Made by a program: the position numbers and the translations under genes. The notes beneath the pieces were generated by a model that saw nothing but the letters and a program-made list of their open reading frames with translations, was not told the origin of the DNA and searched no databases. A stretch of DNA of 64,000 bases from Wenyingzhuangia gilva (GTDB lineage: Bacteria > Bacteroidota > Bacteroidia > Flavobacteriales > Flavobacteriaceae): positions 806,001 through 870,000 of the forward strand of contig NZ_JAUMIT010000001.1 of assembly GCF_030519655.1 (NCBI RefSeq), in the 5' to 3' direction. Shown here one piece after another: positions 24,756-58,848 of this stretch; positions within the stretch are counted from its first letter, which is position 1; the number at the start of each line of letters is the position of its first letter.

Positions 24756-24760
24756 AGCAT

Positions 24761-25111: not shown

Positions 25112-25119
25112 GATTTCTT

Positions 25120-26689: not shown

Positions 26690-26726
26690 AAAAAAAAACA
26701 AGGCAACATATTCTATGTTGCCTTGC
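26690..26726 (-). terminator. Terminator after dabA
   Basis: Perfect 12-bp stem CAAGGCAACATA / TATGTTGCCTTG with a 3-nt loop. In the leftward direction it is followed by a run of nine Ts, so it ends the dab operon. Confidence 0.85.
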
Positions 26727-26756
26727 TTATGATCACGTTAACTTTTCGTCTCAATT

Positions 26757-29117
26757 CTATAACCTCTCTACCATTTCTACTTGTAGTTCAACCTTTTTAA
26801 CATCTGATAAAATATCTTTTTTATTCTCTACTAGTTTCCATTCAAACTTCTTTTGATAACATTTAATTTTGTTCTCATCTAGAACATCTATTACCATTAA
26901 ATAAATCCATTCATTGTCTAATAATTGTTTGATGGATTCATTTTTTTCAATAATCTCACTAACACGTTCTAGCGGAGCTTCAATAAACACTGAAAGTCTT
27001 AATGGTTGATGGTATATTTCATCGTCTGATTTATATAACGATTGTAATGGCAATCCCCTTTTTAAATCTCCTCCATTTCCTTGAACAACACCATAATTAC
27101 CAGTTACATTGTGGGTTATTTTAGTACCTCCACCAAAAACTTGACTATCTACAGCAGAAAAGTAATAATGGTTATTAATCCATTGTGTTACCACCATTGC
27201 ACCTTGCATAATTCCTTGTAGTGCTTTTCCTTCTTTATCCAATTTCCAATTGTAAGAATGTAGAAAACAACGTCCATTTAAATTACTTTTTTTAGTTAAT
27301 TCTCTTTGCCCAATTACAAAACCAGCATTATTTGCTAATCCCCATTCAGGTCTAGTTTCACTCCAATTGGTCGCTTTTTTATTGGCTGTGGAAATACTAT
27401 TTTTGGCTGTTCCTAATCGTTCTTGAGTAGCCGTTTGTTGGGCTTTTAACAAATTAGATTTTAGTCCATCTAATAAGTGTTTGTGTTCGCTTGGCACTTC
27501 AGCATCAAATATTAAAATTTCATCTGTTGTGGTATTATGCTCTGCTCCAATAAACACGGTATTCTCAGGAATTTTTATCTCATAATCATTTACAAGAACC
27601 TCTCTTACCTCTTTCATATTAGCAAGTTTTGCCAGCATTCTTGCATTGTGTCTTCCTGGACTTGCAGCACAGGCTCCACAGTCTAAACTTGATCCAAATG
27701 GATTGTTAGTTGTATGACTTCCATGTCCAACAAAAAGAACCAAGGGAGCAAAATTTTCCCATCCCATTAAGTCAAATGCAGATTTTACTATTGCCACTTT
27801 ATCATCCAACGAAAGCGTATTATTAACACTTTTTAAATTTGGTTGACAAATACTTTCATGGTTTTGAAGTTGTGATTTTTTTATACCGTAAGAATAAGAC
27901 GGAAACAATGTTCTTGCCAACAAAGAAATTCCATAAAAAGGTCCTGATCCTTCAACATAACCAAAAGAAGAAGGAAGCATGTTTTTCATTCTTTTAAAGA
28001 AGTAGTTCCCAAATTTAATATTATCGTTTCTCCTTTTATATTTTTTTACTTTATCGGATTTCCCTTCCAGTGAAGTTTCTGAAACCTTGTAAGCTGAAGG
28101 TACAATTGGAGGACAAGATTTTTTAATTATTCCATTGTGCATATCCTCATAGTCCATCGCAATTCCAAAAAAACCAGCATATCCAAAAGTTTCGTAATTA
28201 CCGCATGCTTCTATATGTCTTCTAATCACTTCAGATCTAGTATCAATGCAAAAAACCATTTGAGCTTCGGGAGTTATTCCTTCATTTTTCGAACTTTTTA
28301 TAGAAAAATTCTCAATGAATTTATTTTGCCAACTTTGCTCCCATGCTTTTAACCAAACATACTGAAGTTTAAACACTAACGTGTTCGCTTCAATTTTATC
28401 TTCCTTAGGTAAAATTTCACCATTTAAAGATTTGGCAATCCATAAACGAACAGCTAAATAATCTTCTAATGTTATAGGATATTTTTTATGCCATTTAGAA
28501 TTTTCTTCTGTTCTATATTTTATATAACCCGTCCATCCTGGCAACGCAGCTAAATGATGAGTGAAAATTTTTACATAATCCTCTTGTTTATAATCACTTA
28601 AAACCTCATCAAGTACTTCAATACTGGTTTCAGGTATCTTAGTAGTACTAGTTCCTTTTAATTCAATATCATGAATTGCTAATTTTTTCCAAGCTTTGTA
28701 AAATCCTTTGTTTCTATAAGGCATCTGCCATTCAGAAACTCCTTCATCCATAAATACAGATAACCATTTTGTAGTTATTCTATCTACATCATGATTGTTG
28801 TTAGAAACTGTTTTTAAACGAACTTGTTCCATTTGTAACAAAGTCTCTTCTATACCTTCTGTAATTTGATGTTCTTTCAGTAAAACTGATAAAATTTCCC
28901 TATCAATGTCGCCATTTTCTAGAGCTCTTTTAAAAACTTTAGCTTCAGGCAGCCCTTTAGATCCAAAAAGTTTTTCTGCTTTCTTAATGGCTTCAACAAA
29001 TGGTAATTTTTCGTAACCCACTAATGGATTTGAAGTCACAAAAGAATACAAAGGCCAAGTTTTACCTAAAAATTGAGTTGCTTCGTTAATCCCTTTTACT
29101 ATGTTTTGCTTACTCAT
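26757..29117 (-). CDS. dabA: DabA-type inorganic carbon transporter subunit (DUF2309/UPF0753)
   Basis: The large cytoplasmic subunit of the DAB system, a carbonic-anhydrase-like protein coupled to a proton-conducting membrane subunit for uptake of dissolved inorganic carbon. The 786 residues include the two halves of the expected zinc site: Cys and Asp in VFCIDTRSE (about 289-291), and the later His in FVGHGSHTTN with Cys in LDCGACAASPGRHN (about 465-490). The start overlaps the end of dabB by four bases. The family assignment is strong; transport of bicarbonate or CO2 is inferred from characterised DAB systems. Confidence 0.92.
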   Translation of the reverse strand: MSKQNIVKGINEATQFLGKTWPLYSFVTSNPLVGYEKLPFVEAIKKAEKLFGSKGLPEAKVFKRALENGDIDREILSVLLKEHQITEGIEETLLQMEQVRLKTVSNNNHDVDRITTKWLSVFMDEGVSEWQMPYRNKGFYKAWKKLAIHDIELKGTSTTKIPETSIEVLDEVLSDYKQEDYVKIFTHHLAALPGWTGYIKYRTEENSKWHKKYPITLEDYLAVRLWIAKSLNGEILPKEDKIEANTLVFKLQYVWLKAWEQSWQNKFIENFSIKSSKNEGITPEAQMVFCIDTRSEVIRRHIEACGNYETFGYAGFFGIAMDYEDMHNGIIKKSCPPIVPSAYKVSETSLEGKSDKVKKYKRRNDNIKFGNYFFKRMKNMLPSSFGYVEGSGPFYGISLLARTLFPSYSYGIKKSQLQNHESICQPNLKSVNNTLSLDDKVAIVKSAFDLMGWENFAPLVLFVGHGSHTTNNPFGSSLDCGACAASPGRHNARMLAKLANMKEVREVLVNDYEIKIPENTVFIGAEHNTTTDEILIFDAEVPSEHKHLLDGLKSNLLKAQQTATQERLGTAKNSISTANKKATNWSETRPEWGLANNAGFVIGQRELTKKSNLNGRCFLHSYNWKLDKEGKALQGIMQGAMVVTQWINNHYYFSAVDSQVFGGGTKITHNVTGNYGVVQGNGGDLKRGLPLQSLYKSDDEIYHQPLRLSVFIEAPLERVSEIIEKNESIKQLLDNEWIYLMVIDVLDENKIKCYQKKFEWKLVENKKDILSDVKKVELQVEMVERL

Positions 29118-30583
29118 AATGATGTTGATTTAAACATTAATACAGATTTTTTATACGGTTGAGAATCATTTAAGAGTTTTACATACAACCATGGTATTCT
29201 ACGGTAAATCCCTAGCTTCATGATAAAAAAACCGATTAAAAAAACGACTCCAAATACTATTTGAATGATTGACAATGATAAGTGTTCATTAACCATTGGC
29301 ATATCAGACATTAATAAACTTACAGCATTATATATAATTGCATAAAAACTAATTCCTGAAAGGAACAGCAAAGGAGATATTAGTGTCTTTTGAGCCATGG
29401 ATAAGCTTTTCTCTTTTACAATGTTATAGGTGATTTGACCTACTGTTATAGCAACAACTAATGTTAAAAAAATACTACTGTTTAACTCCGTTCCTTTTCC
29501 TGTTAAAGTTGCAAAAACTACACCTCCAATAATTCCAAAAATCAATACTACAATTGCTTGAGAAAACGTAATTCTTAAAGGGATATGTTTTTCAGGTGTT
29601 GAGTGTTTTATTCCCTCTCCAGCTGACAAAAATAAATATGCTTTATAAAACCCATGAAGTATTAAGTGAACAACCGCTGCATTAAAAAACCCTAACCCAC
29701 ATTGCATAATCATAAATCCCATTTGAGCAATGGTAGAACAAACCAGTTTCTGTTTTATATTTACTTGTAATAACTTTGTAAATTGTGCTACAATTGCAGT
29801 AACTCCACCAATAATCAGCAGTATGTTTAAAGTGTTTGATGCAAAGAACAACGGAGAAAACATAGCAAATAAAATTCCTGAACCATTTACAAAACCTGCA
29901 TGCATTAAAGCCGATGCTGGTGTAGGAGCTGTCATTGCTGAAAGTAACCATCTATGAAAAGGATAAATGGCAGATTGGATAACTCCTGAAATAATGATAC
30001 AAAATGCAGCTAAAAGTAACGTTAAACTATGTAAGTCATTTAATTTAGATAAAATACCGTTTAAAGTAAATGTTTTGGTTTGATAGGCTAATAAAAGTAC
30101 ACCCAAACTCAAAAAGAAAGTACCAATAAGAAAATATTTTTGTGCAAATTTTAAAGCTTTTTTCGCCTCTCCCCAATCTGAATCTACACCTATTAAGTTG
30201 GACATAAAAACCCCCATAAATAACCAGGAAATTAATAAAGGCACCACATGATTAGACATAACAAGAACCATTACAGAACTTGTAAATCCAAAACATAAAA
30301 AAATAAATTTTTGATGATAACGAAACCCTTTTAAATAATTTTTCCCATAACTACTTACTATAGCACTAAAAAAAGCAACCGTACACCATATTAAAAGTGT
30401 AAAACCATTAATTCTAAAAATCCCTTTCCATTCCCATTGAGGCCCATCAGGATAGTAATAAAAAAGAGCTCCTAAGTTGACAATAAACAACAACCAGAAA
30501 AAAAGACTGTTTATTTTAGAAAAAGTAAACAAAGTGTCTTTCTTTTGGGTTATTGAGTGATCTAAATTATTTTCAAGTATCAT
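29114..30583 (-). CDS. dabB: DabB-type proton-conducting membrane subunit (NuoL/MrpA-like)
   Basis: A 489-residue polytopic membrane protein of the proton-translocating NADH dehydrogenase/Mrp antiporter family, with about 13 hydrophobic helices. The conserved core HRWLLSAMTAPTPASALMHA (about residue 210) is characteristic of NuoL/DabB. Coupling with dabA by an ATGA overlap and the absence of other Nuo or Mrp genes identify it as the DAB partner, driving carbon uptake with the proton gradient. It lies 33 bp downstream of a small gene on the same strand. Confidence 0.93.
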   Translation of the reverse strand: MILENNLDHSITQKKDTLFTFSKINSLFFWLLFIVNLGALFYYYPDGPQWEWKGIFRINGFTLLIWCTVAFFSAIVSSYGKNYLKGFRYHQKFIFLCFGFTSSVMVLVMSNHVVPLLISWLFMGVFMSNLIGVDSDWGEAKKALKFAQKYFLIGTFFLSLGVLLLAYQTKTFTLNGILSKLNDLHSLTLLLAAFCIIISGVIQSAIYPFHRWLLSAMTAPTPASALMHAGFVNGSGILFAMFSPLFFASNTLNILLIIGGVTAIVAQFTKLLQVNIKQKLVCSTIAQMGFMIMQCGLGFFNAAVVHLILHGFYKAYLFLSAGEGIKHSTPEKHIPLRITFSQAIVVLIFGIIGGVVFATLTGKGTELNSSIFLTLVVAITVGQITYNIVKEKSLSMAQKTLISPLLFLSGISFYAIIYNAVSLLMSDMPMVNEHLSLSIIQIVFGVVFLIGFFIMKLGIYRRIPWLYVKLLNDSQPYKKSVLMFKSTSL

Positions 30584-30616
30584 TTTATAGTTTTTTAATA
30601 ATGTTAAAGAATTAGC

Positions 30617-30919
30617 TTATGAATTTGAAGCAATAATTTCTATAACTCCATTAATTTGTATTTTTTGATTAGGATTACTATATGATGTGATGAAATTTTT
30701 AGCAATTTCTTTTTGTCTTTCCAATTCAGCAATTCTCATGTCTAATTCTCTACTATCAAATTGATGATTTGCCTCCCATAATTGTAATTTTTGTGTTTTA
30801 TGAAATTTTATTTTTTCATCAAATTGAGAACTAATAACATCTAAAGCCTCTGATGGCAAAAATTCACCTTTCACCAATTGAACTTGCTCAGAAATTCTTT
30901 TTAAGTCTTTTGAATACAT
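30617..30919 (-). CDS. Small helical protein, first gene of the dab operon
   Basis: A 100-residue soluble protein that I do not recognise. It is predicted almost wholly helical from about residue 1 to 78 with heptad-like charge (RELDMRIAELERQKEIAK), followed by a short strand-like tail (IQINGVIEII). There is no signal peptide or membrane segment. It is co-oriented with dabB (33 bp gap) and the promoter-like TATAACCTTTG lies upstream of it (about 30950), so it is likely part of the same transcript. A regulatory or assembly role for DAB is possible but only guessed from position. Confidence 0.65.
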   Translation of the reverse strand: MYSKDLKRISEQVQLVKGEFLPSEALDVISSQFDEKIKFHKTQKLQLWEANHQFDSRELDMRIAELERQKEIAKNFITSYSNPNQKIQINGVIEIIASNS

Positions 30920-31037
30920 AAAATTGTTTTTTTATTAATATTTTATGCAAAGGTTATATTTTATTTTCATAAATTTTTATTTATAATATTTATATAAAAC
31001 ATAAACATTGTAAATGAATAAAAATTATGAATATAAA

Positions 31038-31072
31038 AAAGCTCTTATTTTTTCAAATAAGAGCTTCTTTCA
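31038..31072 (-). terminator. Terminator after the TlpA-like gene
   Basis: Stem AAGCTCTTATTT / AAATAAGAGCTT with a 4-nt loop, followed leftward by TTTTTT, 19 bases after the stop codon. Confidence 0.85.
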
Positions 31073-31090
31073 CAAGGTTTTATATGTTGG

Positions 31091-32416
31091 CTATTCTAAA
31101 ATTTCTTTTAAAACTTTAAAACCATTAGGCTTGGCAATAATACGTTTATCTTTATTTAGAATAAAGTAAGTAGGCGTTGCATTTACATCATAAGAGACAG
31201 CTTCTTTGCTTTCCCATTTTCCAAGGGCTATAACATTTTTCCAATCTTTCATGTGTTCTTCTACAATAGTACTCCAATTTTCTTTGGTTCCTTCATCTTC
31301 TAAACCGACGGCAACAACAGTAATATCAGGTTTTAAAATAATAATTTCTTTCACTTTTGGCAGCTCTACAGAACAATGCGAACAAGTACTACTCCAAAAA
31401 ACAATTAAATATTTATTTGTTCCCTTTAAAGTGTGTAAAGTTTCTGTTTCCGAAATTCTAATGTCTGGTGCAATGGCTCCAATAATTACTCTTGCTTTTT
31501 TATCAGTTTCTTCGATTAATTTTTTATCCTGAACAGCAACTGGCAATTGTTTATATAAACTAACAATGGCTGTTAATACTTTGTTATTTTCTTTTTTTAT
31601 AAACTCTGGAATAAAAAAACGTAGCACTTCTTCTTTAAAAACATCGTCTGTGGTTTTATCTAATATTTCTTTAACAGCTTCTATATACAATTCATTTTGC
31701 TGTACCACATCATCTGTTTGATGTAAATAAAAAACATAATCCTTTAACCTACTTTTAATAAACATTGAGTTTCTAAGTGTTGGATCTTGAAAATCTATAT
31801 AATCAAAAAAGTGAGTGATAATGTTCTCTAAGTATTCTTCAGGCAAGGTAAATGGTAACGGAGCATTGTACCTTTTTGTTGCTTTAATAAGTCCTAAACA
31901 ATAATCGTTTTTAGCCAAATCTTCATAATAATCCTGAGCTCCATCAATTTTATATTTGATTTCTTGATACTTTGCCACATTGGTTGTTGGCTTGCTAAAA
32001 TATGCCAATTGTGTTGAATCTAATTTGTATTGTAATTGACTAATATTATAATTATAGGCCAATAACAATTGATTTTCTCTAGATTCTAAATAAGAGACTG
32101 AAGGTTGTCCTTTTTTACTATCAACGCTAAATTTTACATTTTCGTTGTTGTAAATAAAATCAACATAACCTGTTTTTATGTTTTGATACAAAGCTCTGTA
32201 ATTCCCTGCTGGCAAACTATCCATAGAAAACACAAATTGTTTGTTTTCTACATCTGCATATTTTACATAATCTGCTTCACCTTTAATAATTCTATACAGA
32301 GCAACATCTTCTATATCGGTAACATTATCAGTAAAAACGCCTGTTACTGTATGCTGAGCATTTACGAACTGAGAGGCTATAACTATTATAAATGTGATCA
32401 AATTTTTCATATGCAT
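31091..32416 (-). CDS. TlpA-like thioredoxin-fold thiol:disulfide protein, exported
   Basis: A 441-residue protein with an N-terminal signal peptide (ending FVNAQ), a beta-rich N-terminal domain of the type found before TlpA domains in Bacteroidetes, a helical middle and a C-terminal thioredoxin fold (about 310-440). The active-site WSSTCSHC (CxxC) lies near residue 345, and the cis-Pro is in NATPTYFIL. It probably acts as a periplasmic disulfide reductase, for instance in cytochrome c maturation. The start could also be the ATG two codons downstream (32410); both give the same signal peptide. Confidence 0.88.
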   Translation of the reverse strand: MHMKNLITFIIVIASQFVNAQHTVTGVFTDNVTDIEDVALYRIIKGEADYVKYADVENKQFVFSMDSLPAGNYRALYQNIKTGYVDFIYNNENVKFSVDSKKGQPSVSYLESRENQLLLAYNYNISQLQYKLDSTQLAYFSKPTTNVAKYQEIKYKIDGAQDYYEDLAKNDYCLGLIKATKRYNAPLPFTLPEEYLENIITHFFDYIDFQDPTLRNSMFIKSRLKDYVFYLHQTDDVVQQNELYIEAVKEILDKTTDDVFKEEVLRFFIPEFIKKENNKVLTAIVSLYKQLPVAVQDKKLIEETDKKARVIIGAIAPDIRISETETLHTLKGTNKYLIVFWSSTCSHCSVELPKVKEIIILKPDITVVAVGLEDEGTKENWSTIVEEHMKDWKNVIALGKWESKEAVSYDVNATPTYFILNKDKRIIAKPNGFKVLKEILE

Positions 32417-48345: not shown

Positions 48346-50580
48346 TTGAAACAACTATTTTTATTTACTAACCTGATTATATGCCTAGTTTCTTGTAAAC
48401 CGAAAGAAGAGAACGCTTATAAAAAAATAGATCCTAATGCTATTTTTACCAGTACGGATAGTATTCCTAACAAACACTATGTAGGAAGTCAAAAATGTAA
48501 AGAATGTCATGCAACTCAATTTAAAGATTGGGAAGGTTCACACCATGACAAGTCGATGCAAAAAGCCAATAGACAAACAATTATTGCTCCTTTTAATGGA
48601 GAAGTTTTTAAAAGTCAAGGAGTCACTTCTACTTTTTTTCAAAAAGAAGGAAAATTTTATGTGAATACGGAAGGACGTGATGGTAAAAATCATGATTATG
48701 AAATAATTTACACTTTTGGTTTTACACCTTTACAGCAATATATTGTGTTGTTTCCTGATGGTCAATATCAATGTTTAAGAACTGCTTTTAACACTAAAAA
48801 AAATAAATGGTTTGATTTGTATCCAGATTTTAAAGTAGTTCATAAAGAGTGGCTGCATTGGAGTAGAGGAGGACTGAACTGGAATACCATGTGTGCAGAT
48901 TGCCACAGTACCAACGTAAAGAAAAACTACAACGAAAAAAATCATAGTTATGATACCAATTATGCCATTATCAATGTAAGTTGTGAAGCTTGTCACGGAC
49001 CCGGAAAAAAGCATGTTGAAAATGCTTTAAAAAAAGGAAGTGATTATAAAAATGATGGTACCATGCAAATGGTTGGTTTAGATTCTAAAGAATTAGTTGA
49101 TGCCTGTGCTCGTTGCCATGCTAGAAGAGAAAACATTACTTTATTTCACACACCACAGGGTACTTTTTTAGATCATTATTTTCCTCAATTCATTACCAAA
49201 GATATTTATCATGCCGATGGTCAAATTTTAGATGAAGACTATGTATATGGATCTTTTATACAAAGTAAAATGTATCATAACGGGGTAAGTTGTAAAGATT
49301 GTCACAATCCACACTCTACCAAGCGTAAATTTGATGATAATAGACTTTGTATGCAATGTCATGACGGAGCTACTTTTAATGTAGAAAGTCATCACAAACA
49401 CAAAATGGGAACAAAAGAAGCCATGTGTATTAACTGTCACATGCCTGGAAAATATTATATGGGAAATGATTTTAGACGTGACCATAGTTTTAGAATTCCA
49501 AGACCTGATTTAAGTATCAAATATGGAACACCAAATGCATGTGTTGGATGTCATAAAGACAAAGACGACCAATGGGCTTATGAAAATTTTGTAAAGTTAT
49601 ATGGAGAACCTAAAAAAAATCATTTTTCTGATAAATTAGCTCCAGGAATTACGGGTACAATAGGAGGAAGAGATAGTTTAATGCTGTTGGCTCATGATAC
49701 CATTTACCCTAATATGGCTAGGGCTTCTGCAGTGTCAAACCTAAGAAATTATGCTGGACAAATTAATGTATCGGAAGTCTTAAAATTTTTAAAGGATAAA
49801 TCTCCATTAGTAAAAGGAGCAACCGCAGATTTGTTATTTGATTTAAAATTAGGAGCAGATAATTATAAAGTACTTTTACCTTTATTAAAAGATGATAAAA
49901 CAGCTGTAAGAGTAAAAGCTTTTTTTGCTTTAAGCAGCATTCCCTACTCTAAAATACCTAAGGAATATAGAGATGTTTACGAAAAGGTTAAAATTGAATT
50001 TGCGAATCATTTAAAGGCTACAGGAGAGTTTTCTGGTGGTAGAATGAAACGTGCACAATATTATCTCAATACCGGAAAAATACAGAGTGCTATTAGCACT
50101 TTAGAAGATGCTCTTAAAATAGATATTACCAATAATATTGTAAGAACTACTTTAGCTAATTTATACTATCAAGTTAAAGATTATCAAAAATCTGAAGAAG
50201 CTTATAAAACCATTTTAGAACAAGAACCTGGTTTTGGATTGACTAATTATGATTACGGTTTGTTGTTAAACGAATTAGGGAGACCTAAAGAAGCTATTGT
50301 TCAACTACAAAAAGCTATTGGATATTTGCCAGAAAATGATAGAATTGCTTACAATTTAGCTTTGTTATATTTTCAAAACAAACAAACTAAAAATGCCATT
50401 TCTGTTTTAAACACTCAATTAAAAAGAAGCGCTAACAATACTGATTTAATTTATCTGATGGCATATATTTATAAGGAAAATAATGAGATAGAAAAAGCTA
50501 AAAAATACGCTAAAAAACTTATTGAAATTGCTCCGCTAAATCAACAATATCAAAACTTTTACAATATTTTAAATCAATAA
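48346..50580 (+). CDS. Octaheme cytochrome c (c554-like) lipoprotein with TPR repeats
   Basis: A 744-residue lipoprotein. The TTG start gives a signal peptide with the lipobox CLVSC (Cys about 17), and no in-frame ATG does so. Eight CxxCH heme-binding motifs occur at about residues 51, 183, 213, 254, 316, 335, 361 and 399, several in the CEACHG, CKDCHNPH and CINCHMP forms found in cytochrome c554/NrfB-like proteins. A HEAT-like helical region (about 470-540) and then four TPR units (about 560-740) follow. It is likely an outer- or periplasm-facing electron carrier; the redox partner is unknown. No oxidoreductase gene neighbours it. Confidence 0.9.
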   Translation: MKQLFLFTNLIICLVSCKPKEENAYKKIDPNAIFTSTDSIPNKHYVGSQKCKECHATQFKDWEGSHHDKSMQKANRQTIIAPFNGEVFKSQGVTSTFFQKEGKFYVNTEGRDGKNHDYEIIYTFGFTPLQQYIVLFPDGQYQCLRTAFNTKKNKWFDLYPDFKVVHKEWLHWSRGGLNWNTMCADCHSTNVKKNYNEKNHSYDTNYAIINVSCEACHGPGKKHVENALKKGSDYKNDGTMQMVGLDSKELVDACARCHARRENITLFHTPQGTFLDHYFPQFITKDIYHADGQILDEDYVYGSFIQSKMYHNGVSCKDCHNPHSTKRKFDDNRLCMQCHDGATFNVESHHKHKMGTKEAMCINCHMPGKYYMGNDFRRDHSFRIPRPDLSIKYGTPNACVGCHKDKDDQWAYENFVKLYGEPKKNHFSDKLAPGITGTIGGRDSLMLLAHDTIYPNMARASAVSNLRNYAGQINVSEVLKFLKDKSPLVKGATADLLFDLKLGADNYKVLLPLLKDDKTAVRVKAFFALSSIPYSKIPKEYRDVYEKVKIEFANHLKATGEFSGGRMKRAQYYLNTGKIQSAISTLEDALKIDITNNIVRTTLANLYYQVKDYQKSEEAYKTILEQEPGFGLTNYDYGLLLNELGRPKEAIVQLQKAIGYLPENDRIAYNLALLYFQNKQTKNAISVLNTQLKRSANNTDLIYLMAYIYKENNEIEKAKKYAKKLIEIAPLNQQYQNFYNILNQ

Positions 50581-50582
50581 GA

Positions 50583-50744
50583 ATGCTACTTGAATTATTG
50601 TTTACTTTTTTAGTTTTAGGAATTATTTTTTGTTCTACTAAAGCCTTTGTTTGGTTTGCAAGAAAAAGAATGAATGCTATTAATTATATGAATAAAAACC
50701 AACACAATCCATGGTTTAGGATTTTGAAAAAGCATAAGTTTTAA
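50583..50744 (+). CDS. 53-residue membrane protein after the cytochrome gene
   Basis: An ATG-started frame two bases after the cytochrome stop. Residues 3-22 (LELLFTFLVLGIIFCSTKAF) form one transmembrane helix, followed by a basic tail (ARKRMNAINYMNK ... ILKKHKF). It ends directly before a strong terminator. Its last 17 codons and the terminator are duplicated 6.26 kb downstream, which suggests that this sequence is an insertion target. It may help anchor or mature the cytochrome, but this is only positional. Confidence 0.65.
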   Translation: MLLELLFTFLVLGIIFCSTKAFVWFARKRMNAINYMNKNQHNPWFRILKKHKF

Positions 50745-50781
50745 TTATAAAAAAAGCCTCTGAAAATTCAGAGGCTTTTTT
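50691..50781. repeat. 91-bp direct repeat, left copy
   Basis: Left copy of a repeat found again at 56952-57042 with 90 of 91 bases identical (mismatch at 50732/56993). It covers the end of the 53-residue membrane protein gene, its stop codon and the whole terminator. Confidence 0.95.
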
Positions 50782-50782
50782 T
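50751..50782. terminator. Terminator after the cytochrome unit
   Basis: Stem AAAAAGCCTCTGAA / TTCAGAGGCTTTTT with a short loop and T-run. It sits between the convergent small membrane protein gene and the secreted propeller gene. Confidence 0.9.
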
Positions 50783-50798
50783 AATATAGCTAACTTAT

Positions 50799-53700
50799 TT
50801 AGTTTTTAATAAAACGTTTTACAGCAATTGAATTATTGTTTGTGTATATCTTTAAAATATAAACCCCTTTTTCTAAGTTAGAAACATCTATAGGTTGAAT
50901 ATTCTTATTTTCTAAAACTTTTTTACCCATCACAGAATAAATCTCAATTTTTAAAATATTGTAATTGTTTATATTTTGTAGAGTCAGAACATCACTTACA
51001 GGATTTGGATGAATTTTAAAAGCCTCAGAGTCTAAACGATTGACACTAAGATCACCCGTTCTTTCTATTTTTAAGGTATTCCATACCCAGTTTACATCAC
51101 TTCCTCCATTATCCCCAATTTTTAACACTAATTTTTTATTAGTAACAGTTACTTCAAATTCATTGATTATATAATTACCTGTTTCACTAGAAAAATCTGC
51201 CACAGCACTTTCATTATTGGCAGCAATAAACATTTTATCGTGGGCATAATCACTATCACCGTGAGTTGTTGTAATTCTATAAACTCCGTTCTCTAAATAA
51301 ACTTGAAATTCTTTATTCTCAGATGATAATACAAAGTCTAGATTAGGCGTGTTTGAAGAACTTCCTCTATCTCTTGATAAAATTCCATTAGTGGTAATCC
51401 AACCATAAGATTGATTTAATTGACTAGACTCATGAATTCTTATAGCGTTTGGCATTAAGGGAGAAGATTGTGTCCCAAAATCAAATGTGGTATCATTTGC
51501 TAAAGGAATAATAGCATTTACATTTACAATACAAGAACCTATAAGATTACCATTACTTAGACTTGCATAAATAGTAGTAGAACCTGAAGATACTGCTGTA
51601 ACCAATCCATTTGAATCTACAGTCGCTATGTTTTCATCATCACTAGACCAAGTAACATTCTCTGAAGAAATTTCTACTGGAGAAGTTGTAAAATGTAATT
51701 GAACAACATCCAATTCATTTACTAAGACATTTTCTTCTTTAATATTTATATTACTAACTTTTAACTCTTTAGTATCAATTAATAAACTATTTATTACCCA
51801 AGGATTTCCAGAATTTGAATTACTAAACTCCAACTCTAATACCCCATTTGTTACCTCTACATCAAACGTGTGTGTGGTCCATTCTCCAATATTAGAACTA
51901 CCATTAGATAAAACTTCTACACCATTAGCTCTTATCATTTGACCGCTCAGAGCTGTTGTATTGGTTCCTTGTACAACTGTTATACTATAGGTACCATTAA
52001 ATAATTTTTGTTTAAATATGGCTGTATTTGTACCACTAACATAATCTGTTTCTGCTTTATTTGTTTGTGAATCATCTACAGCTGTTAAACCTGTTATATT
52101 TATAAATCCATAATCATTAGCATAAACATTAGAATTTGTTACTCTTAAAGCATCTGTATCTAACGCAGAATTTTCTGTTCCAAAATCATAGTATTTTAAT
52201 TCATCTTTAGGACTATAATACATGATAGAGGTAAGGTAGTTTTGATAAGTAATATATTTTCCTCGCATCCACATAACATCAAAAGATCCAGGTTTATGAT
52301 TTCTAGGAACTACAGGTCTTACATTAATCACATCGGCTGGTGTGTTTTCTGTAATAGCTGTTGTTTTCCATGTTGCTCCATCATCAGGGGTTTGATATTT
52401 ATAAATTTCAAAAACATCATTTACTTGTTTAGATAAATAAACCGTAGAAATATCATTAGGATCTAAACTCATACCTCCTGAATAATTGGGTTCAGGTTCT
52501 GTTCCTCCTGAGGGTGTTTGTGGAAACCATTTTCCACTATTAACAATATGATGATTGTTCCACTGTGAACCATCAAATTTTGCATAATAATAATGATGAT
52601 TATAATCATCCGGGAAAGCTGCATATAAAATAACAGGTTTCTCATTTTTATCAAGAGCAATATCCCAAGTCCAACCTTTTCCTTGTGATGCATTATAAAC
52701 TACTTCTGGTTCTCCTGCATCAATATCTAAAGCACTAGAGGTACCAGTATAATTCTTTATAAAAGTTCCATCCGCTTTATAAAACTTATTGTCTTTAAAA
52801 TAAACGTAATAAATTTTATTTGATGGTTCTTGTCTAGGATGACCAGTAGTAAAAGTAATGTGAACTCCTTCTTGACTGTCTTGTATATATCTTACATAAG
52901 GTCTTTTTTGAGCAGCATTTCTCTTGATTAATGTTTGAGGACTTCCCCAGGTTAATCCACCATCATTTGAAATAGCAATGCTAGGATGCCAACTACTTCC
53001 ATCTCTATAAAACATGTAAATATCATTTCCTATTTGATATGGATTTGCATAAGTAACCTCTGTTCCAAAAGTAGCTTCTGGTCCAAAAGAAGTAATATCT
53101 TCTGGATTTTCTGAAACAAGAACACGCATAGGCCCAAAAAAATGTCCCGAATAACTAACCATAATACGTCCATCTTTTCTTACCAAAAAAGTAGGGTTGT
53201 TATGGTCATCTACTTGAAAACCTTCTCTAATAGTTGTTTGAATAATTTCACCAGTTTCATGATTGTAACTTGCAACTTGTATTTTTCCGTCGTGAGTAAT
53301 CCAACCCGAATAAGTTTGTTCTTTTTCACCTTTATAATACAATGCTCTTGGATCTTGAAACCAACACCAAGTACCATCATTTGTAAAAGTTTTTGTTCCT
53401 CTTGCTAAATATGGTGTTGGAGGAATTATAATTTCTGTTTCTTGTAAATTTAATTCTGCCAAGCCAATAAGTCCTCCTTGAGTACCACTAAGTCCATTTA
53501 TTTGTTTTAATTGAATGTAATACTCGCCATTTGTAGGTGGTTCAAAATAAATGTCAATTGGATAATAAACTCCTCTAGTACTTATAGAGTAACTTTTTGT
53601 TGTAATAATATTCCCTCCTTCAGGAGCATCTGATATTGAAAACTCATAAGTTGGGTTATTAGCATTGTTAATCCACTCATAGTAACCTGTAAAACGATAT

Positions 53701-54065
53701 GCTTTACCTGCTTCTAAAGTAATGCCCGATTGACCAGTGTCTACCCCTGGATTGGTTGGTAAACCTAAAGACATAGTAGAACCTACATAACTTCCTTCCC
53801 ATCGATACAAAAACTCTCTTCCTGTAAAAGCACCTCCACCATCTATAGTAATATTAGTCACATCTTTATATCTAACTCCTAATGCATTTGCAAGTTGCCA
53901 ATCTGTACCACCTGTAGAAGCTGCAAATCCCCATTTATTTCCTTCACTTCCAGGCCCTGTTAATCCATTTGCATTCCAATTTGGAATTAAATTTTGTGCA
54001 CAAACACTATTTATTCCTAATGTAAAAATAAAGGTTGATAATAATAATTTTAATTTTAGTTTCAT
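50799..54065 (-). CDS. T9SS-secreted BNR-repeat beta-propeller protein, candidate polysaccharide-active enzyme
   Basis: A 1088-residue exported protein with a signal peptide (ending VCAQ). Domains in order: a carbohydrate-binding-like beta domain (about 25-210) shared with the two neighbouring genes; a BNR-4-type propeller (about 220-630, starting WCWFQDPRALYY) with conserved His in YNHETG (about 263) and DDHNNP (about 286); a galactose-binding-like FDFGTE domain (about 640-770); a BIG2 Ig domain (about 775-865); a second FDFGTQ domain (about 872-1005); and a T9SS sorting domain (from IHPNPV, about 1012). The propeller with paired His resembles PL24/PL25 ulvan lyases and BNR-4 proteins, but the catalytic role is inferred. 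Confidence 0.8.
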   Translation of the reverse strand: MKLKLKLLLSTFIFTLGINSVCAQNLIPNWNANGLTGPGSEGNKWGFAASTGGTDWQLANALGVRYKDVTNITIDGGGAFTGREFLYRWEGSYVGSTMSLGLPTNPGVDTGQSGITLEAGKAYRFTGYYEWINNANNPTYEFSISDAPEGGNIITTKSYSISTRGVYYPIDIYFEPPTNGEYYIQLKQINGLSGTQGGLIGLAELNLQETEIIIPPTPYLARGTKTFTNDGTWCWFQDPRALYYKGEKEQTYSGWITHDGKIQVASYNHETGEIIQTTIREGFQVDDHNNPTFLVRKDGRIMVSYSGHFFGPMRVLVSENPEDITSFGPEATFGTEVTYANPYQIGNDIYMFYRDGSSWHPSIAISNDGGLTWGSPQTLIKRNAAQKRPYVRYIQDSQEGVHITFTTGHPRQEPSNKIYYVYFKDNKFYKADGTFIKNYTGTSSALDIDAGEPEVVYNASQGKGWTWDIALDKNEKPVILYAAFPDDYNHHYYYAKFDGSQWNNHHIVNSGKWFPQTPSGGTEPEPNYSGGMSLDPNDISTVYLSKQVNDVFEIYKYQTPDDGATWKTTAITENTPADVINVRPVVPRNHKPGSFDVMWMRGKYITYQNYLTSIMYYSPKDELKYYDFGTENSALDTDALRVTNSNVYANDYGFINITGLTAVDDSQTNKAETDYVSGTNTAIFKQKLFNGTYSITVVQGTNTTALSGQMIRANGVEVLSNGSSNIGEWTTHTFDVEVTNGVLELEFSNSNSGNPWVINSLLIDTKELKVSNINIKEENVLVNELDVVQLHFTTSPVEISSENVTWSSDDENIATVDSNGLVTAVSSGSTTIYASLSNGNLIGSCIVNVNAIIPLANDTTFDFGTQSSPLMPNAIRIHESSQLNQSYGWITTNGILSRDRGSSSNTPNLDFVLSSENKEFQVYLENGVYRITTTHGDSDYAHDKMFIAANNESAVADFSSETGNYIINEFEVTVTNKKLVLKIGDNGGSDVNWVWNTLKIERTGDLSVNRLDSEAFKIHPNPVSDVLTLQNINNYNILKIEIYSVMGKKVLENKNIQPIDVSNLEKGVYILKIYTNNNSIAVKRFIKN

Positions 54066-54104
54066 AATCTAATTAATTGAACTATTAAGTATATTTATAC
54101 AATA

Positions 54105-54141
54105 AAATAGATCGACACATATGTATAGTATCGATCTATTT
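54105..54141 (-). terminator. Terminator after the middle secreted paralogue
   Basis: Stem AAATAGATCGA / TCGATCTATTT with a 15-nt AT loop, 22 bases after the stop. A similar hairpin, ATTAGACTGA / TCAATCTAAT, follows the other paralogue at 55384-55425. Confidence 0.6.
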
Positions 54142-54162
54142 ATATTGAAAATAATTTAAAAA

Positions 54163-55047
54163 TTATTTAGCAAACTTTACTACTTGAACTTCACCAGAAA
54201 TGGTTGTAACACGTAAAATATAAGTTCCACTTTGTAAGCTAGAAATACTAATTGTACTAGAATCGTTATTAGATAATACTGATCTACCTAATATATCGAA
54301 TACAGTAATATTACTTACTCCTGAATTTGTTTTTACTGATAATACATCTTTATTAAATGCTATTTGAGGTTTTATATTTGAAATATTATTAGAACTTAAA
54401 GTTCCTTTATCTTCTAAACTCAAATTTGCCAATTGAATAATAGTACCAGCTGCACTACCATCACCTGATGTTTGTCTAATTTGAAAAAAATAATCACCAC
54501 TAGTATCAGGAGTAAAATTATATGTAAAACTATAATAACCTCCTTTAGTAGTATTATTTTCATGTCTATCTTTTTCCTCTAAACTAAAATCTTGAGGATT
54601 CAGCGCATCACCATCCGGAGTAGTAGAGTATGAAAATTGATATGTTGGAGCTTCACCATTATTAAACCACATATAATATCCTGTAAGAGTATATGTATTT
54701 CCTGCAGTCATTGTAATTCCTGATTGACCAGTACTTCCAGTAACTCCTAAAGACATAACTGATCCCCACCAAGATCCATCCCATCTATATAAAAACAACC
54801 TACCATTATACGTTTGTGTAGTACCATCAATAGTATAAGATTGATTATCTCGATACCTTACATCACCACCATTAGCTGTTCCCCAAGGCGCATCAACTCT
54901 AGATGTACCAAACCCCCATTTATTTGCCTCAGAACCCGCTCCGGTTGCTCCATTAGCATCCCAATCTGGAATTAAGTTTTGTGCAGATGTAGCACTAACT
55001 GCAAATAATAGCATTGCTGCTGAAATTAATTGTGTAATTTTTTTCAT
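54163..55047 (-). CDS. T9SS-secreted carbohydrate-binding-like protein, intact paralogue
   Basis: A 294-residue exported protein: signal peptide MKKITQLISAAMLLFAV... ending TSAQ, then the same beta domain as the N-terminus of the 1088-residue protein (about 24-215: NLIPDWDANGATG, RLFLYRWDGS, TGYYMWFNN), then a short T9SS sorting domain (about 220-294, ISSLQSGTYILRV, ending VVKFAK). It lacks any catalytic module, so it is probably a surface lectin-like or adhesive protein. Together with 55438-56262 and the propeller protein it makes a family of three. Confidence 0.82.
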   Translation of the reverse strand: MKKITQLISAAMLLFAVSATSAQNLIPDWDANGATGAGSEANKWGFGTSRVDAPWGTANGGDVRYRDNQSYTIDGTTQTYNGRLFLYRWDGSWWGSVMSLGVTGSTGQSGITMTAGNTYTLTGYYMWFNNGEAPTYQFSYSTTPDGDALNPQDFSLEEKDRHENNTTKGGYYSFTYNFTPDTSGDYFFQIRQTSGDGSAAGTIIQLANLSLEDKGTLSSNNISNIKPQIAFNKDVLSVKTNSGVSNITVFDILGRSVLSNNDSSTISISSLQSGTYILRVTTISGEVQVVKFAK

Positions 55048-55146
55048 AATATAAATATGTTTTAATTAAGTACACTAAAACTAGTGTAATAAAAAGAGAT
55101 TAAAGGTTGTTAAATTAATAAAAAAAAGGGGGGTAATTGATTGTAT

Positions 55147-55379
55147 TTAACAAACTTTGTTTATTGAACTTCACACGAAAAGATTTTAATAACTAAAATA
55201 TAAGTTCCGCTTTGTAAACTAGAAATACTAATTGTACTATAATTATTATTAGGCAATACTAACCTACCTAATACATCAAATAAAGTAATAATACTACTTA
55301 TTCCTAAATTTATTGTTGCCAATAACACATCATTATTAAATGATATTTCAGGTTTTATATTTGAAATATTAATTATCAA
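55147..55379 (-). pseudogene. Orphan T9SS sorting-domain fragment
   Basis: About 72 residues of open frame repeat the C-terminal tail of the neighbouring paralogues (NISNIKPEISFNNDVL ... SSLQSGTYIL), but the N-terminal domain is missing. A stop after SCEVQ cuts off the usual VVKFAK end, although its remnant is readable beyond the stop. It is a decayed third copy, left between the two intact genes. Confidence 0.8.
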
Positions 55380-55437
55380 AAAAATTAGACTGACACCTTA
55401 CAGAATAGTAAAGTATCAATCTAATACTTATATAAAT

Positions 55438-56262
55438 TTATTTAGCAAACTTTACTACTTGAACTTCACCAGAAGTTGTTGTAACTCGTAAAATATAAGT
55501 TCCACTCTGTAAACTAGAAATACTAATTGTACTAGAATTGTTATTAGACAATACTGATCTACCTAATATATCAAATAAAGTAATACTACTTATTGCTGAA
55601 TTTGTTGTTACTGATAACACATCATTATTAAAAGATATTTCAGGTTTTATATTTGAAATATTTTTAGAACTTAAAGTTCCTGTATTTTCTAAATTTAAAT
55701 TTGCTAATTGGATAATACCTCCTGTAGAACTAGTTAAACCATTTGTTTGTGTTAATTGTAAATAATAATCACCTGTAGTTGGAGGCGTAAATGAATAAGT
55801 AAACTCTTTATAAATTTCTGTTTCAGTTTGTGAAAATTCTTGAGGAGACAAAGCAGTCCCTGTAGGGGTATCAGAAAAAGAAAATTGATAAGTAGGGGCA
55901 ATACCATTATTTAACCATAAATAATATCCTGTTAACTCATAAACTTTTCCTGCTTCCAATGAAATTGCTCCTTGACCAGTACTAGAGGTAACACCTAAAG
56001 ACATAATACTACCTTCATATCCACCGTCCCATCTATATAAGAAATGTCTTCCTGTATAACTCTCTGAAGAACCTTCTATAGGAAAAGTTGTGTTGTCACG
56101 ATATCTAACACCACCTCCATTAGCCTCTCCCCATGTAGGATTTATAGCATTACTTGCAAACCCCCACATATTTCCTTCACTTCCTGCTCCAGTTGCTCCA
56201 TTTGCATCCCAGTTTGGAATCAAGTTTTGTGCAGATACATTCATAACTGCAAATAACAGCAT
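55438..56262 (-). CDS. T9SS-secreted carbohydrate-binding-like protein, paralogue with a shifted signal peptide
   Basis: A paralogue of the gene at 54163-55047 with the same beta domain (NLIPNWDANGATG, HFLYRWDGG, TGYYLWLNN) and an intact T9SS tail. The ATG matching the paralogue's start lies at 56294-56296 but is followed by eight As instead of seven, putting the first 11 codons out of frame. The open frame therefore begins at an internal ATG (56262), giving only MLLFAVMNVSA as a remnant signal. With one A fewer, the sequence would restore a full signal peptide. It may be frameshifted, phase-variable through the A-run, or affected by a base-calling error. Confidence 0.7.
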   Translation of the reverse strand: MLLFAVMNVSAQNLIPNWDANGATGAGSEGNMWGFASNAINPTWGEANGGGVRYRDNTTFPIEGSSESYTGRHFLYRWDGGYEGSIMSLGVTSSTGQGAISLEAGKVYELTGYYLWLNNGIAPTYQFSFSDTPTGTALSPQEFSQTETEIYKEFTYSFTPPTTGDYYLQLTQTNGLTSSTGGIIQLANLNLENTGTLSSKNISNIKPEISFNNDVLSVTTNSAISSITLFDILGRSVLSNNNSSTISISSLQSGTYILRVTTTSGEVQVVKFAK

Positions 56263-56438
56263 TACTGCTGAAATTAATTGTGTAATTTTTTTTCATAATA
56301 TGATATATTTTAATTATTTATATTAAAATTAACACAATAAAATAAACAAAAGGTTATCAAATTAATAAAAAAAAAGAGTAATTAACTTATTTTAAAATTT
56401 AAACAGTAAATACTCTAAATAAACACATTATTTACTAT

Positions 56439-56949
56439 TTATTTATTCATGTTATAAATTATTATTAGTTTTATTATTAATACATAATTATTAATTCTAT
56501 TATTTAGTTTTAGTATATAAACTCCTGCTAAAAGGTTTTGATCAACTTTACAAGAAGTTTATGCAACTCCAGATTCTATTTTTTTCCATCAAAACCATAA
56601 ATATCATAAGTAAAATCTCCATCCATTTCAACTAAAAAGTTACATTATTAGAGGAGCTATAAGAACCTTCTTCTCGAATATAATACTTATAGCTTGGATA
56701 TAAATTTAATATAGTTGTAAACTCTTGCTCTACAGATAAATCTCTTGTATCTATTCTCAACTCATTATTAATATAAACTTGTACATTTACATTTGATCTT
56801 AAATGAAGTGTACATTCTTCTAGTTGCTAAATTTCTAGTTGTACTGCACACTTAACATTTATATCATCTCCATATGCTGAGTAATCTATATTCTGAAGGT
56901 TTATAGCATCCAATTCTTCAATTACAGAGTTTTGAATCCACATCTGAAA
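56439..56949 (-). pseudogene. Decayed 3' part of another T9SS-secreted protein
   Basis: Conceptual translation on the minus strand in shifting frames gives a beta-rich segment (WIQNSVIEELDAINLQN; VQVYINNELRIDTRD; YKYYIREEGSYSSSNNVTF), then GDFTYDIYGFDGK and NLLAGVYILKLNNR, a typical T9SS sorting tail. At least three in-frame stops or shifts interrupt it. It abuts the right copy of the 91-bp repeat and the upstream region of the shifted paralogue. The interval 56297-56438 is AT-rich and contains only that paralogue's promoter area. Confidence 0.65.
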
Positions 56950-56951
56950 CC

Positions 56952-57042
56952 AATAAAAACCAACACAATCCATGGTTTAGGATTTTGAAAAAACATAAGT
57001 TTTAATTATAAAAAAAGCCTCTGAAAATTCAGAGGCTTTTTT
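56952..57042. repeat. 91-bp direct repeat, right copy
   Basis: Right copy of the repeat at 50691-50781. It contains a 17-codon remnant of the 53-residue membrane protein gene (KNQHNPWFRILKKHKF) and a working-looking terminator, now facing rpiB. Confidence 0.95.
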
Positions 57043-57062: not shown

Positions 57063-57497
57063 TTAACAACCACAAGGAATTTTATCAATTCTGGTTTGGT
57101 GACGACCTCCTTCAAATTCAGTATTTAAAAAAGTTTCAACCATTTCTAAAGCCTGGGGAATGGCTGTGAAACGAGCAGGAATACATAAAATATTTGCATT
57201 ATTATGTTGTCTTACCAATAATACAATTTCCTTAGACCAGCACAAACCAGCTCTTACATTTTTATATTTATTAGCTGTCATAGCGACTCCATTTGCAGAT
57301 CCGCAAATTAAAATTCCAAAATCTACTGCTTTGGTATCTACATCACTTGCCACTTTATGAGCATGATCAGGATAATCTACACTGTCTAAAGTATCGGTTC
57401 CATAATTTACAACTTCAATACCTTTTTGTTCTAACAATTTAACAATAGCTAATTTGTAATCTGGACCAGCGTGATCGTTTCCTATGGCTATTTTCAT
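57063..57497 (-). CDS. rpiB: Ribose-5-phosphate isomerase B
   Basis: A 144-residue RpiB/LacAB-family isomerase interconverting ribose 5-phosphate and ribulose 5-phosphate. The N-terminal KIAIGNDHAGPDYK and the active-site Cys in ILICGSANGVAMTANK (about 65-80) fit the family. I use ATG 57497, which gives the standard start; the frame continues upstream to 57581, but that part overlaps the end of the dehydrogenase gene and is not conserved sequence. It is probably co-transcribed with the upstream dehydrogenase. Confidence 0.95.
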   Translation of the reverse strand: MKIAIGNDHAGPDYKLAIVKLLEQKGIEVVNYGTDTLDSVDYPDHAHKVASDVDTKAVDFGILICGSANGVAMTANKYKNVRAGLCWSKEIVLLVRQHNNANILCIPARFTAIPQALEMVETFLNTEFEGGRHQTRIDKIPCGC

Positions 57498-57540
57498 TTT
57501 ATCTATTTTATATTTTGTGGCAAATTTACGTAAAAAAAGC

Positions 57541-58848
57541 CTATAATTCTGCGTTGGTTCTAATTCTACGTTTGGTAACACTATATCTGCGTACTATTAA
57601 ACGAGATCCTTTATTATAGTTTGTATAATTGTATATCCAACTAATTAATATTACCAATCGGTTTCTAAAACCAACCAAAGACATTAAGTGAACAAACATC
57701 CAAATAAACCAAGCAAAAAATCCACCGAATTGTAATTTTTTAATATCAGCCACGGCTTTGTTTCTACCAATGGTTGCCATAGAACCTTTGTCGTTATATT
57801 TAAAAGGTTTTAAATTTGTATTGCCTTTTAAAATTTTAGGAAAGTTTTTAGCTAGATTTTTAGCTTGTTGAATAGCGGGTTGCGCTACTTGTGGATGTCC
57901 TCTTGGATAATCATCAGAAATCATTAAAGCAACATCACCCAAAGCAAAAACATCTTTAAATCCTTTAATTTGATTAAATTCATTTACATAATATCTTCTG
58001 GTTCTTGGTTCAGAACATTCTTCAGCAAAACCATCAATTCTGTTCGCAATTACACCAGCAGACCAAATTAAAGTACGTGTGGCAAATTCTTTTCCATCTT
58101 TAGTAGTTGCCAACTTACCATCATAAGAAGTTACAATGGTATTGGTATGAATTTGAACCCCTAATTCTTTTAAAAATTTAGTTGATTTTTTTGAAGCATG
58201 TTCACTCATAGGAGGTAAGACTCTATCGGCACCTTCTAATAAATTAATTTGCATCAATTCAGGATCTAAATCAGGAAAATCTAAAGGAAGTACACTCTTT
58301 TTAAATTCTGCAATAGCTCCAGCCAATTCAACCCCTGTAGGTCCTGCACCAACAATTACAAAATTTAATAAGAATTTTTGAACTTCTATATCTGCTTCTA
58401 CAGTAGCACGTTCAAAATTTTGTAATATTAAACTTCTTAAGTTCAATGCCTGAGGAATAGTTTTCATTGGCATTGCATGCTTTTTTATTTCTTTATTTCC
58501 AAAATAATTGGTTTTAGTACCTGTATTGATGATTAAAAAATCATAAGATAAATCACCAATATCAGATTTAATTATTTTGTTATCAGGATCTATTTCTTTG
58601 ACATCAGCCAATCTAAAATAAAAATTTTGTTGTTTTTTAATAAACATTCTTAAAGGATAAGCAATAGAATCAGATTCTATACCACTTGTAGAAATTTGAT
58701 ACAACAGGGGTTGAAAAGCATGATAATTATGCTTATTAATCATGACCAATTGAATAGGTAGTTTTCTTAATTTTTTAACCAAATTAAGACCGGCAAATCC
58801 TCCTCCAATAACTACAACTCTTGGTAAATTTGATTTAGGTACATTCAT
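57541..58848 (-). CDS. NAD(P)/FAD-dependent oxidoreductase, NDH-2-like
   Basis: A 435-residue type II NADH dehydrogenase-like flavoprotein that feeds electrons to quinone without pumping protons. Two Rossmann motifs are visible, VVIGGGFAGLN (about 11) for FAD and VIVGAGPTGVELAGA (about 163) for NADH, and the late FAD motif KDVFALGDVAL (about 299). Hydrophobic segments near 360-400 would attach it to the membrane. It starts at the left edge of the presumed origin region and reads away from it. Confidence 0.93.
   Translation of the reverse strand: MNVPKSNLPRVVVIGGGFAGLNLVKKLRKLPIQLVMINKHNYHAFQPLLYQISTSGIESDSIAYPLRMFIKKQQNFYFRLADVKEIDPDNKIIKSDIGDLSYDFLIINTGTKTNYFGNKEIKKHAMPMKTIPQALNLRSLILQNFERATVEADIEVQKFLLNFVIVGAGPTGVELAGAIAEFKKSVLPLDFPDLDPELMQINLLEGADRVLPPMSEHASKKSTKFLKELGVQIHTNTIVTSYDGKLATTKDGKEFATRTLIWSAGVIANRIDGFAEECSEPRTRRYYVNEFNQIKGFKDVFALGDVALMISDDYPRGHPQVAQPAIQQAKNLAKNFPKILKGNTNLKPFKYNDKGSMATIGRNKAVADIKKLQFGGFFAWFIWMFVHLMSLVGFRNRLVILISWIYNYTNYNKGSRLIVRRYSVTKRRIRTNAEL

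Follow-up and report, generated by a model that had tools for sequence, protein, structure and literature searches.

Is the group of secreted-protein genes that lies between two copies of a 91-bp sequence beside rpiB of Wenyingzhuangia gilva an integrated element? The first-pass annotation of this DNA had proposed an integration that duplicated its target, a gene end plus terminator, as at tRNA att sites, or else a recombination-driven gain of a gene cluster. I analysed the locus in the window (the whole stretch of 64,000 nucleotides) and in related genomes. The reading that I favour, with a probability of about 0.55, is that the interval between a small gene, here called S, and rpiB is a gene-turnover slot and not a mobile element, and that recombination between the flanking terminators copied the end of S rightwards. 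The features of the locus are as follows.

48346..50580, + strand: cytochrome c554/TPR protein, the conserved left anchor, with an orthologue in 7 of 7 genus genomes
50583..50744, + strand: S, an open frame of 53 aa, a membrane protein by eye
50691..50781, + strand: left 91-bp repeat copy, S 3' end plus terminator
50799..54065, - strand: gene A, 1088 aa, secreted, with the N-domain common to A, B, and C, a BNR_4 propeller, Big_2, an AGA-YXIM-like domain, and a T9SS tail
54163..55047, - strand: gene B, 294 aa, N-domain and T9SS tail
55144..55379, - strand: remnant, the T9SS tail of a third B/C-like copy (repeat search and domain scan)
55438..56262, - strand: gene C, a paralogue of B (70% aa) with a T9SS tail
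56445..56927, - strand: decayed C-terminal part of an X-like gene, with stops and a 154-bp internal deletion, matching L009:12441-13077
56952..57042, + strand: right 91-bp repeat copy, next to rpiB; in W. marina this position has the terminator part alone
57063..57581, - strand: rpiB, the right anchor

The repeat and the genes between its copies

In a repeat search of the window, it was confirmed that 91 bases recur with one mismatch, as the first-pass annotation had stated. The two copies are identical at 90 of 91 positions (99%) with a spacing of 6261, and the sole difference is G at 50732 in the left copy versus A at 56993 in the right copy. The repeat consists of the last 17 codons of S, the stop codon, and a terminator with a T-run and a perfect stem of 12 bp or more, in agreement with the annotated content, the 3' end of a small gene plus its terminator. 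With the 91 bases as query, blastn gave 12 hits in the own genome: exactly two of full length, two on the opposite strand that represent the palindromic stem of both copies, and eight partial ones at terminator-like stems in six further places. The pair exceeds chance. When 737 kb of the same contig were compared with themselves (at least 95% identity, 60-600 bp, spacing below 20 kb), eight repeat pairs were found, six inside one repetitive stretch at 413-427 kb and two that are tandem tRNA genes; the 91-bp pair is missing from this list, presumably since its alignment there runs to 111 bp at 93.7%. The exact 24-mer of the terminator stem occurs in 3 of the 7 genus genomes, with two copies in this genome, two in W. 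marina, and one in G002; among 199 sampled family genomes, 4 have it, the own genome counted. Within the genus, the 24-mer is found nowhere but at this locus, and chance sharing of a common terminator was therefore ruled out.

S was found in the same three of the seven genus genomes (this genome, W. marina, and G002) and, among 249 sampled family genomes, in two, the own genome and W. marina, G002 lying outside that sample. Since the nucleotide differences between species fall mostly in synonymous codons (13 of 19, 15 of 17, and 11 of 16), S is probably a real gene. Each terminator now sits between convergent genes, S and A on the left and the X tail and rpiB on the right.

Between the copies there are, as had been noted, only genes of T9SS-secreted proteins and their debris (A, B, C, the tail fragment, and the decayed X tail). 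Local tandem duplication, presumably through unequal recombination, gave rise to B, C, and the tail fragment. The fragment of 72 aa has a Pfam score of 26.8, just below the cut-off of 27, and in gene C, a one-base difference from B within a homopolymer puts the upstream ATG out of frame. At 1e-10, gene C has matches in 3 of 248 other family genomes, two of them covering the tail only and the third covering residues 4-180 at 32%. The structure predicted for gene B was of low quality (mean pLDDT 62.5) and was left aside. The base composition of the island is uninformative about a foreign origin, the GC content per kb being 0.26-0.35 in the island and 0.24-0.33 around it. Pfam scans covering the 12 open frames of at least 50 aa inside the island found no recombinase, integrase, or transposase domain; the earlier statement that no integrase is present holds for these 12 frames. 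A 41-mer of the repeat and gene C had no match in viral contigs, and the whole island DNA had none in plasmid or phage collections.

The slot in related genomes

The first-pass annotation had suggested comparing the interval between the cytochrome gene and rpiB in close relatives. An empty site was found in G002 of the same genus, in the order S, a single 91-base copy, and rpiB, with no cargo; this is the order (small gene, terminator, rpiB) that had been presumed to be ancestral. The empty site of G002 could in principle be a secondary pop-out. In the sister species W. marina, another secreted gene, X, occupies the slot between two terminator copies of about 40 bases. X is similar to rhamnose-glucuronate lyases: its sequence matches solved L-rhamnose-alpha-1,4-D-glucuronate lyases over the propeller (7esk_A, E 3.4e-63, residues 410-794). 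X is a putative PL42-like lyase. In a third species, L013, the slot holds yet another secreted gene, an LRR gene, which has no matching repeat and is flanked by two unrelated terminators. Together with A-B-C in the window, these cases define a fixed backbone site whose cargo differs or is absent.

In the flanks, this genome is 88.9% (left) and 89.0% (right) identical to W. marina, and 85.7 and 85.1% identical to G002; judged by flank identity, this genome has its nearest relative in W. marina. The cytochrome gene taken by itself puts the three genomes at about equal distances (85.4-86.1%), and single stretches vary between this genome and W. marina (85.6% in the cytochrome gene, 90.6% in the right 4 kb). 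Because the similarity to W. marina is about equal left and right, an import of the right flank along with the island is unsupported.

The decayed piece at 56445-56927, adjoining the right repeat, is a homologue of the C-terminal end of W. marina X. Since X lies between two terminators in W. marina and its tail has decayed here, I infer that the filling of the slot and the doubling of the terminator predate the split of the two lineages. The X tail also bears on the assembly. This is a draft genome of 33 contigs, and an island from elsewhere could have been joined to the locus via the repeat, but such an artefact is extremely improbable: the X tail, native to this slot in W. marina, sits inside the island, and the two copies were assembled as distinct because one base differs.

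Age and origin of the second copy

Four states are common to both 91-bp copies and absent from W. marina and G002. Three of them are clear substitutions in S codons, while one lies beside an alignment gap. At no site does just one of the copies side with a relative, and the left copy has a single later change, synonymous AAA/AAG. Because the copies share these four states, it is likely that the S end was duplicated after the slot had first been filled, or else that its copies were homogenised. The earlier phrase "recent or kept by gene conversion" was right in substance. In contrast, a single integration that duplicated a 91-bp target finds no support in that form: the W. marina slot is already filled with the terminator alone doubled, the X tail survives beside the right repeat, the S-end copy is later or homogenised, and L013 keeps a different secreted gene there without the repeat. 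The timing rests on four sites, one of them doubtful, and repeated conversion of an older duplication would look identical.

Such an older duplication would be an insertion that produced a repeat of at least 91 bp in the common ancestor with W. marina, with conversion in this genome and loss of the S part in W. marina. It is consistent with the doubled terminator of both lineages and with the weak alignment past 91 bp in this genome (the 111 bp at 93.7%), but I consider it unlikely: full homogenisation is required here, an extra loss of the S piece is required in W. marina, where no remnant is detectable, and the extension past the terminator is not convincingly above shuffles (177 of 2000 as good). 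Left of the right terminator of W. marina, no S-end homology was detected with 2000 shuffles per comparison, of which 319, 158, and 1096 scored as well in alignment against the S ends of this genome, G002, and W. marina itself, respectively. Right of the left terminator of W. marina, no rpiB-side homology was detected (837 and 1421 of 2000 shuffles as good). Residual homology of a larger ancestral duplication was not found by this shuffle test, which is low in power.

Integrative elements that use gene 3' ends, of the tRNA type, form islands bounded by a duplicated gene 3' end. Here, too, a gene end plus terminator is duplicated as a flanking direct repeat, and a relative has a one-copy empty site. 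Nevertheless, it is very unlikely that a site-specific element used the S end and terminator as an att site. The integrase model was rejected on the lack of a recombinase in the 12 island frames and on the empty viral-contig, plasmid, and phage searches. In addition, the related occupants do not have the same att core, as the W. marina occupant doubles only the terminator of about 40 bp and the L013 occupant lies between unrelated terminators. The att-site analogy is weak because both copies carry the lineage's own substitutions, which a foreign element's own att copy is not expected to carry.

The favoured reading, gene turnover in the slot with copying between its terminators, may have proceeded as follows. 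A secreted X gene would first have entered beside the S terminator in the common ancestor of W. marina and this strain, giving a terminator on either side. This lineage would later have lost the 5' part of X, and A-B-C would have come to fill the slot. Once W. marina had split off, the terminator on the right may have paired with the one on the left over roughly 40 bp of homology, and DNA synthesis would have continued beyond the terminator into the S end. If the new end was then joined to the remainder of X without long homology, one step would have produced the 91-bp copy beside rpiB and eliminated the 5' portion of X. Both the one-sided copying and the junction are deduced from the end product, and the 24 bases preceding the right copy identify no junction.

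Repeat-flanked insertions and known systems

Is such a repeat common around insertions in these genomes? A census covered 0.74 Mb of this genome, 0.76 Mb of W. marina, and 0.83 Mb of G002 (0.54-0.57 Mb aligned per pair). It took in inserts of 800 bp or more for which the neighbouring collinear aligned blocks are no more than 60 bp apart on the empty side; in this census alone, an insertion is indistinguishable from a deletion in the other genome. The 79 pairwise rows merged into 59 intervals, ten of which, this locus included, form pairs in which this genome and W. marina both have an insertion at one and the same place of G002. Nine intervals have a flank overlap of at least 39 bp, and in five of the 59 (about one in twelve) flanking direct repeats were confirmed in the insert-bearing genome; among the other four of the nine, two have no repeat, one has a 26-bp match, and one has a 24-bp match. 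None of 368 simulated insertions (390 tried) reached an overlap of 39 bp, the maximum being 37 bp, which gauges alignment overrun only and not repeat-rich cargo. A case with a 55-bp repeat in G002 has more similarity inside the insert ends and is perhaps a different type of repetitive element.

Two further W. marina insertions are flanked by 273- and 290-bp copies of gene ends, the 5' end of an lrp-like gene (90.5% identity) and the 3' end of an aldo-keto reductase gene (83.8%), both named by eye, and no integrase was recognised by eye among their open frames. These two insertions are in favour of a Campbell-type insertion-duplication, in which a circle or concatemer from the same species, carrying the S end, terminator, and cargo, entered the slot by a single crossover. 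This would predict exactly the observed structure. However, the circle must already link the X tail to the S end and must derive from this lineage, and neither circle nor donor was seen, so that I regard this origin as decidedly unlikely.

No title on this locus was found in the literature searched, subscription journals being mostly outside the coverage. Repeat-flanked variable segments are an already known kind, and the locus resembles them by its fixed site with varying cargo and its end repeats beyond chance. In PMC2884548, cargo is likewise present or absent at a fixed site with direct repeats and an empty relative; within-species comparisons were made, and 66 to 94% of the repeats in the species alignments are below 30 bp. 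In contrast, the repeat here is 91 bp in length, comprises a gene end and terminator, and was apparently re-copied after the first filling. Merodiploid formation by unequal crossing-over in transformation, as outlined in PMC3784515, would be similar in that a repeat mispairs and the exchange then extends into a unique flank. The tandem duplications of Streptococcus pneumoniae described there are about 100 to 900 kb, with a model case between IS861 copies, whereas here there is only a 91-bp copy.

In marine Flavobacteriaceae, terminators at convergent gene ends might be homology seams for swapping non-mobile cassettes that encode secreted, probably glycan-acting proteins, and such swaps would leave behind duplicated gene ends, tens to hundreds of bases long. 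This wider conjecture is tentative and rather unlikely to hold, but if true, it would provide a general integrase-free route for filling fixed chromosomal slots. With two close relatives, a repeat resembling the footprint of a single integration could be dated to later local recombination. At this fixed slot, secreted genes, some of them probably polysaccharide-acting, vary between related species with no mobility gene seen. Since 5 of the 59 insertion intervals are repeat-flanked, the same route may matter for changes in the enzyme sets of such bacteria.

The repeat and the genes between its copies

It was confirmed that, as the first-pass annotation had placed it, a 91-bp sequence at 50691-50781 recurs at 56952-57042, with 90 of 91 bases identical and a spacing of 6261 bp. 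The repeat contains the last 17 codons and the stop codon of the 53-aa small gene S, followed by a perfect stem with a T-run. When the 91 bp were searched against their own genome by blastn, 12 matches were found: the two full-length copies, two reverse-strand matches that are the palindromic stems of these same copies, and eight partial matches spread over six other places. An exact 24-mer of the terminator stem occurs in three of seven genus genomes, at the cytochrome-rpiB locus only (two copies in W. gilva, two in W. marina and one in G002, another genome of the genus), and in 4 of 199 genomes of the family sample, W. gilva counted among them. The terminator is doubled at the S-rpiB locus, not elsewhere. 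Everything between the repeat copies lies on the minus strand.

Genes between the 91-bp copies (X is the secreted-protein gene of W. marina in the same slot)
Gene A, minus strand: BNR_4 propeller, Big_2 and a T9SS tail
Genes B and C, minus strand: N-terminal domain (common to A) and a T9SS tail; mutually 70% identical
Tail fragment, minus strand: remnant of a third B/C-like copy
Decayed gene end, 56445-56927, minus strand: adjoins the right repeat; homologous to the C-terminus of X

The decayed piece shares 85-87% identity with the C-terminal end of X and contains stop codons and a 154-bp internal deletion. At 1e-10, gene C had matches in three of 248 other sampled family genomes; two of these are confined to the tail, and the third spans residues 4-180 at 32%. 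The N-terminal 200 or so residues of A, B and C form a secreted domain (starting NLIPNWDANG) that is not recognised by Pfam; among the 249 sampled family genomes, it was found at 1e-10 only in W. gilva and, as one partial match, in G133. At 56262-56300, the upstream ATG of gene C is out of frame, with one extra homopolymer base relative to gene B, and the start of its signal peptide is thereby shortened; the offset may reflect phase variation, decay or a sequencing error. The upstream region of gene C (56282-56385) resembles that of X (15557-15672 of the W. marina locus L009), with 72% identity over 119 positions, and they perhaps share a promoter or leader.

The slot in related genomes

Wenyingzhuangia is a member of the Flavobacteriaceae, and the window sits on a 1.12-Mb contig. 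The nearest relative is W. marina (about 89% in the flanking blocks), followed by G002 (about 85%); the cytochrome gene, taken by itself, puts all three at about the same distance from one another. The close-relative comparison bore out the proposed ancestral order of small gene, terminator and rpiB: the single-contig genome G002 has S, one 91-bp copy and rpiB, with no cargo. Its alignment with the window runs to 50781 and resumes at 56952, so that the two blocks overlap by exactly 91 bp. In W. marina, the order is S, terminator, X, second terminator and rpiB. The 1038-aa product of X carries LamG, BNR_4 and PA14 domains plus a T9SS tail that scores under the Pfam cut-off (22.9 vs 27); its best solved-structure match is L-rhamnose-alpha-1,4-D-glucuronate lyase (7esk, E 3.4e-63). 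In Wenyingzhuangia sp. 2_MG-2023, a BspA-type LRR gene occupies the space between the cytochrome gene and rpiB; its T9SS tail is narrowly under the cut-off (26.8 vs 27), and the interval has two unrelated terminators. Ochrovirga has the cytochrome-rpiB interval without S and without cargo, and in W. heitensis and W. aestuarii the gene next after the cytochrome gene is ndh-like (named by eye), with rpiB beyond. In total, S is present in three of seven genus genomes.

Flanking repeats among other insertions

A census compared 0.74 Mb of W. gilva, 0.76 Mb of W. marina and 0.83 Mb of G002, with 0.54-0.57 Mb aligned per pair. The 79 pairwise rows gave 59 insertion intervals (W. gilva 21, W. marina 22, G002 16), nine of which have an empty-side flank overlap of at least 39 bp; none of 368 simulated insertions reached this length (maximum 37). 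A direct repeat was confirmed in the insert-bearing genome for five of the nine, and no convincing direct repeat was found for the other four.

Direct repeats confirmed in the census
W. gilva island: alignment 111 bp, 91 near-identical
X, W. marina: alignment 60 bp, 86.7%, terminator at the centre
lrp-like 5′ end, W. marina: alignment 273 bp, 90.5%
Aldo-keto reductase 3′ end, W. marina: alignment 290 bp, 83.8%
G002: 55 bp, flanking a 1.06-kb insert

Thus, flanking repeats are a minority feature (5 of 59 intervals) and are not peculiar to the W. gilva island. The G002 case may be a repetitive element. The lrp-like copies group together (10 sites vs 2 and 0), which indicates that this duplication arose in the W. 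marina line; for the reductase repeat, the corresponding counts of 4, 5 and 2 favour no grouping clearly.

The 273-bp duplicates bound a 9.2-kb insertion in W. marina (G004 C1, about 538449-547658; left copy truncated) encoding two proteins (named by eye), one of 1304 aa and one of 1450 aa that resembles a hybrid two-component regulator. The 290-bp duplicate flanks a 3.4-kb insertion (about 615544-618959 of the same contig) with repeated small lipoprotein-like genes; G002 has a different 8.3-kb insertion at the reductase site, encoding cytochrome P450-, ferredoxin- and glycosidase-like proteins (by eye). Within the window, a 4.4-kb segment (26657-31035) is missing in W. marina and 24007-31092 is missing in G002. 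Outside it, W. gilva C1 413636-426755 has several near-identical direct repeats of 145-439 bp.

Order of events at the S-rpiB locus

Since a remnant of the X tail persists in W. gilva, X or a close relative filled the slot before the split from W. marina. At four sites, both 91-bp copies agree against both W. marina and G002 (three clear substitutions in S codons and one beside an alignment gap), there is no site at which a single copy sides with a relative against its partner, and one change is private to the left copy. Thus, the right copy either acquired its S end from the S of this lineage once the split had occurred, or was overwritten from that S. The dating rests on these four sites, and gene conversion of an older duplication is possible. 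In W. marina, no recognisable S remnant was found left of the right terminator, and nothing recognisable from the rpiB side was found right of the left terminator. Most simply, doubling in the ancestor was confined to the terminator. In the W. gilva lineage, the left terminator would then have served as the template for repair of the right one, with synthesis perhaps continuing past the terminator into S and yielding the 91-bp right copy. This copying step, inferred from its product, would also explain the loss of the 5′ part of X near the start of the S fragment; recognisable X homology stops at 56927 and the right repeat starts at 56952, with 24 bases between that do not reveal a junction.

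In E. coli, S. aureus and S. pyogenes, direct repeats were found to flank 10-18% of variable segments, and 66-94% of those repeats are under 30 bp (PMC2884548); unequal repeat pairing during transformation has been documented in pneumococcus (PMC3784515). The S-rpiB locus fits this known kind, and is distinguished by the length of its repeat, the gene end that the repeat contains and the evidence of re-copying.
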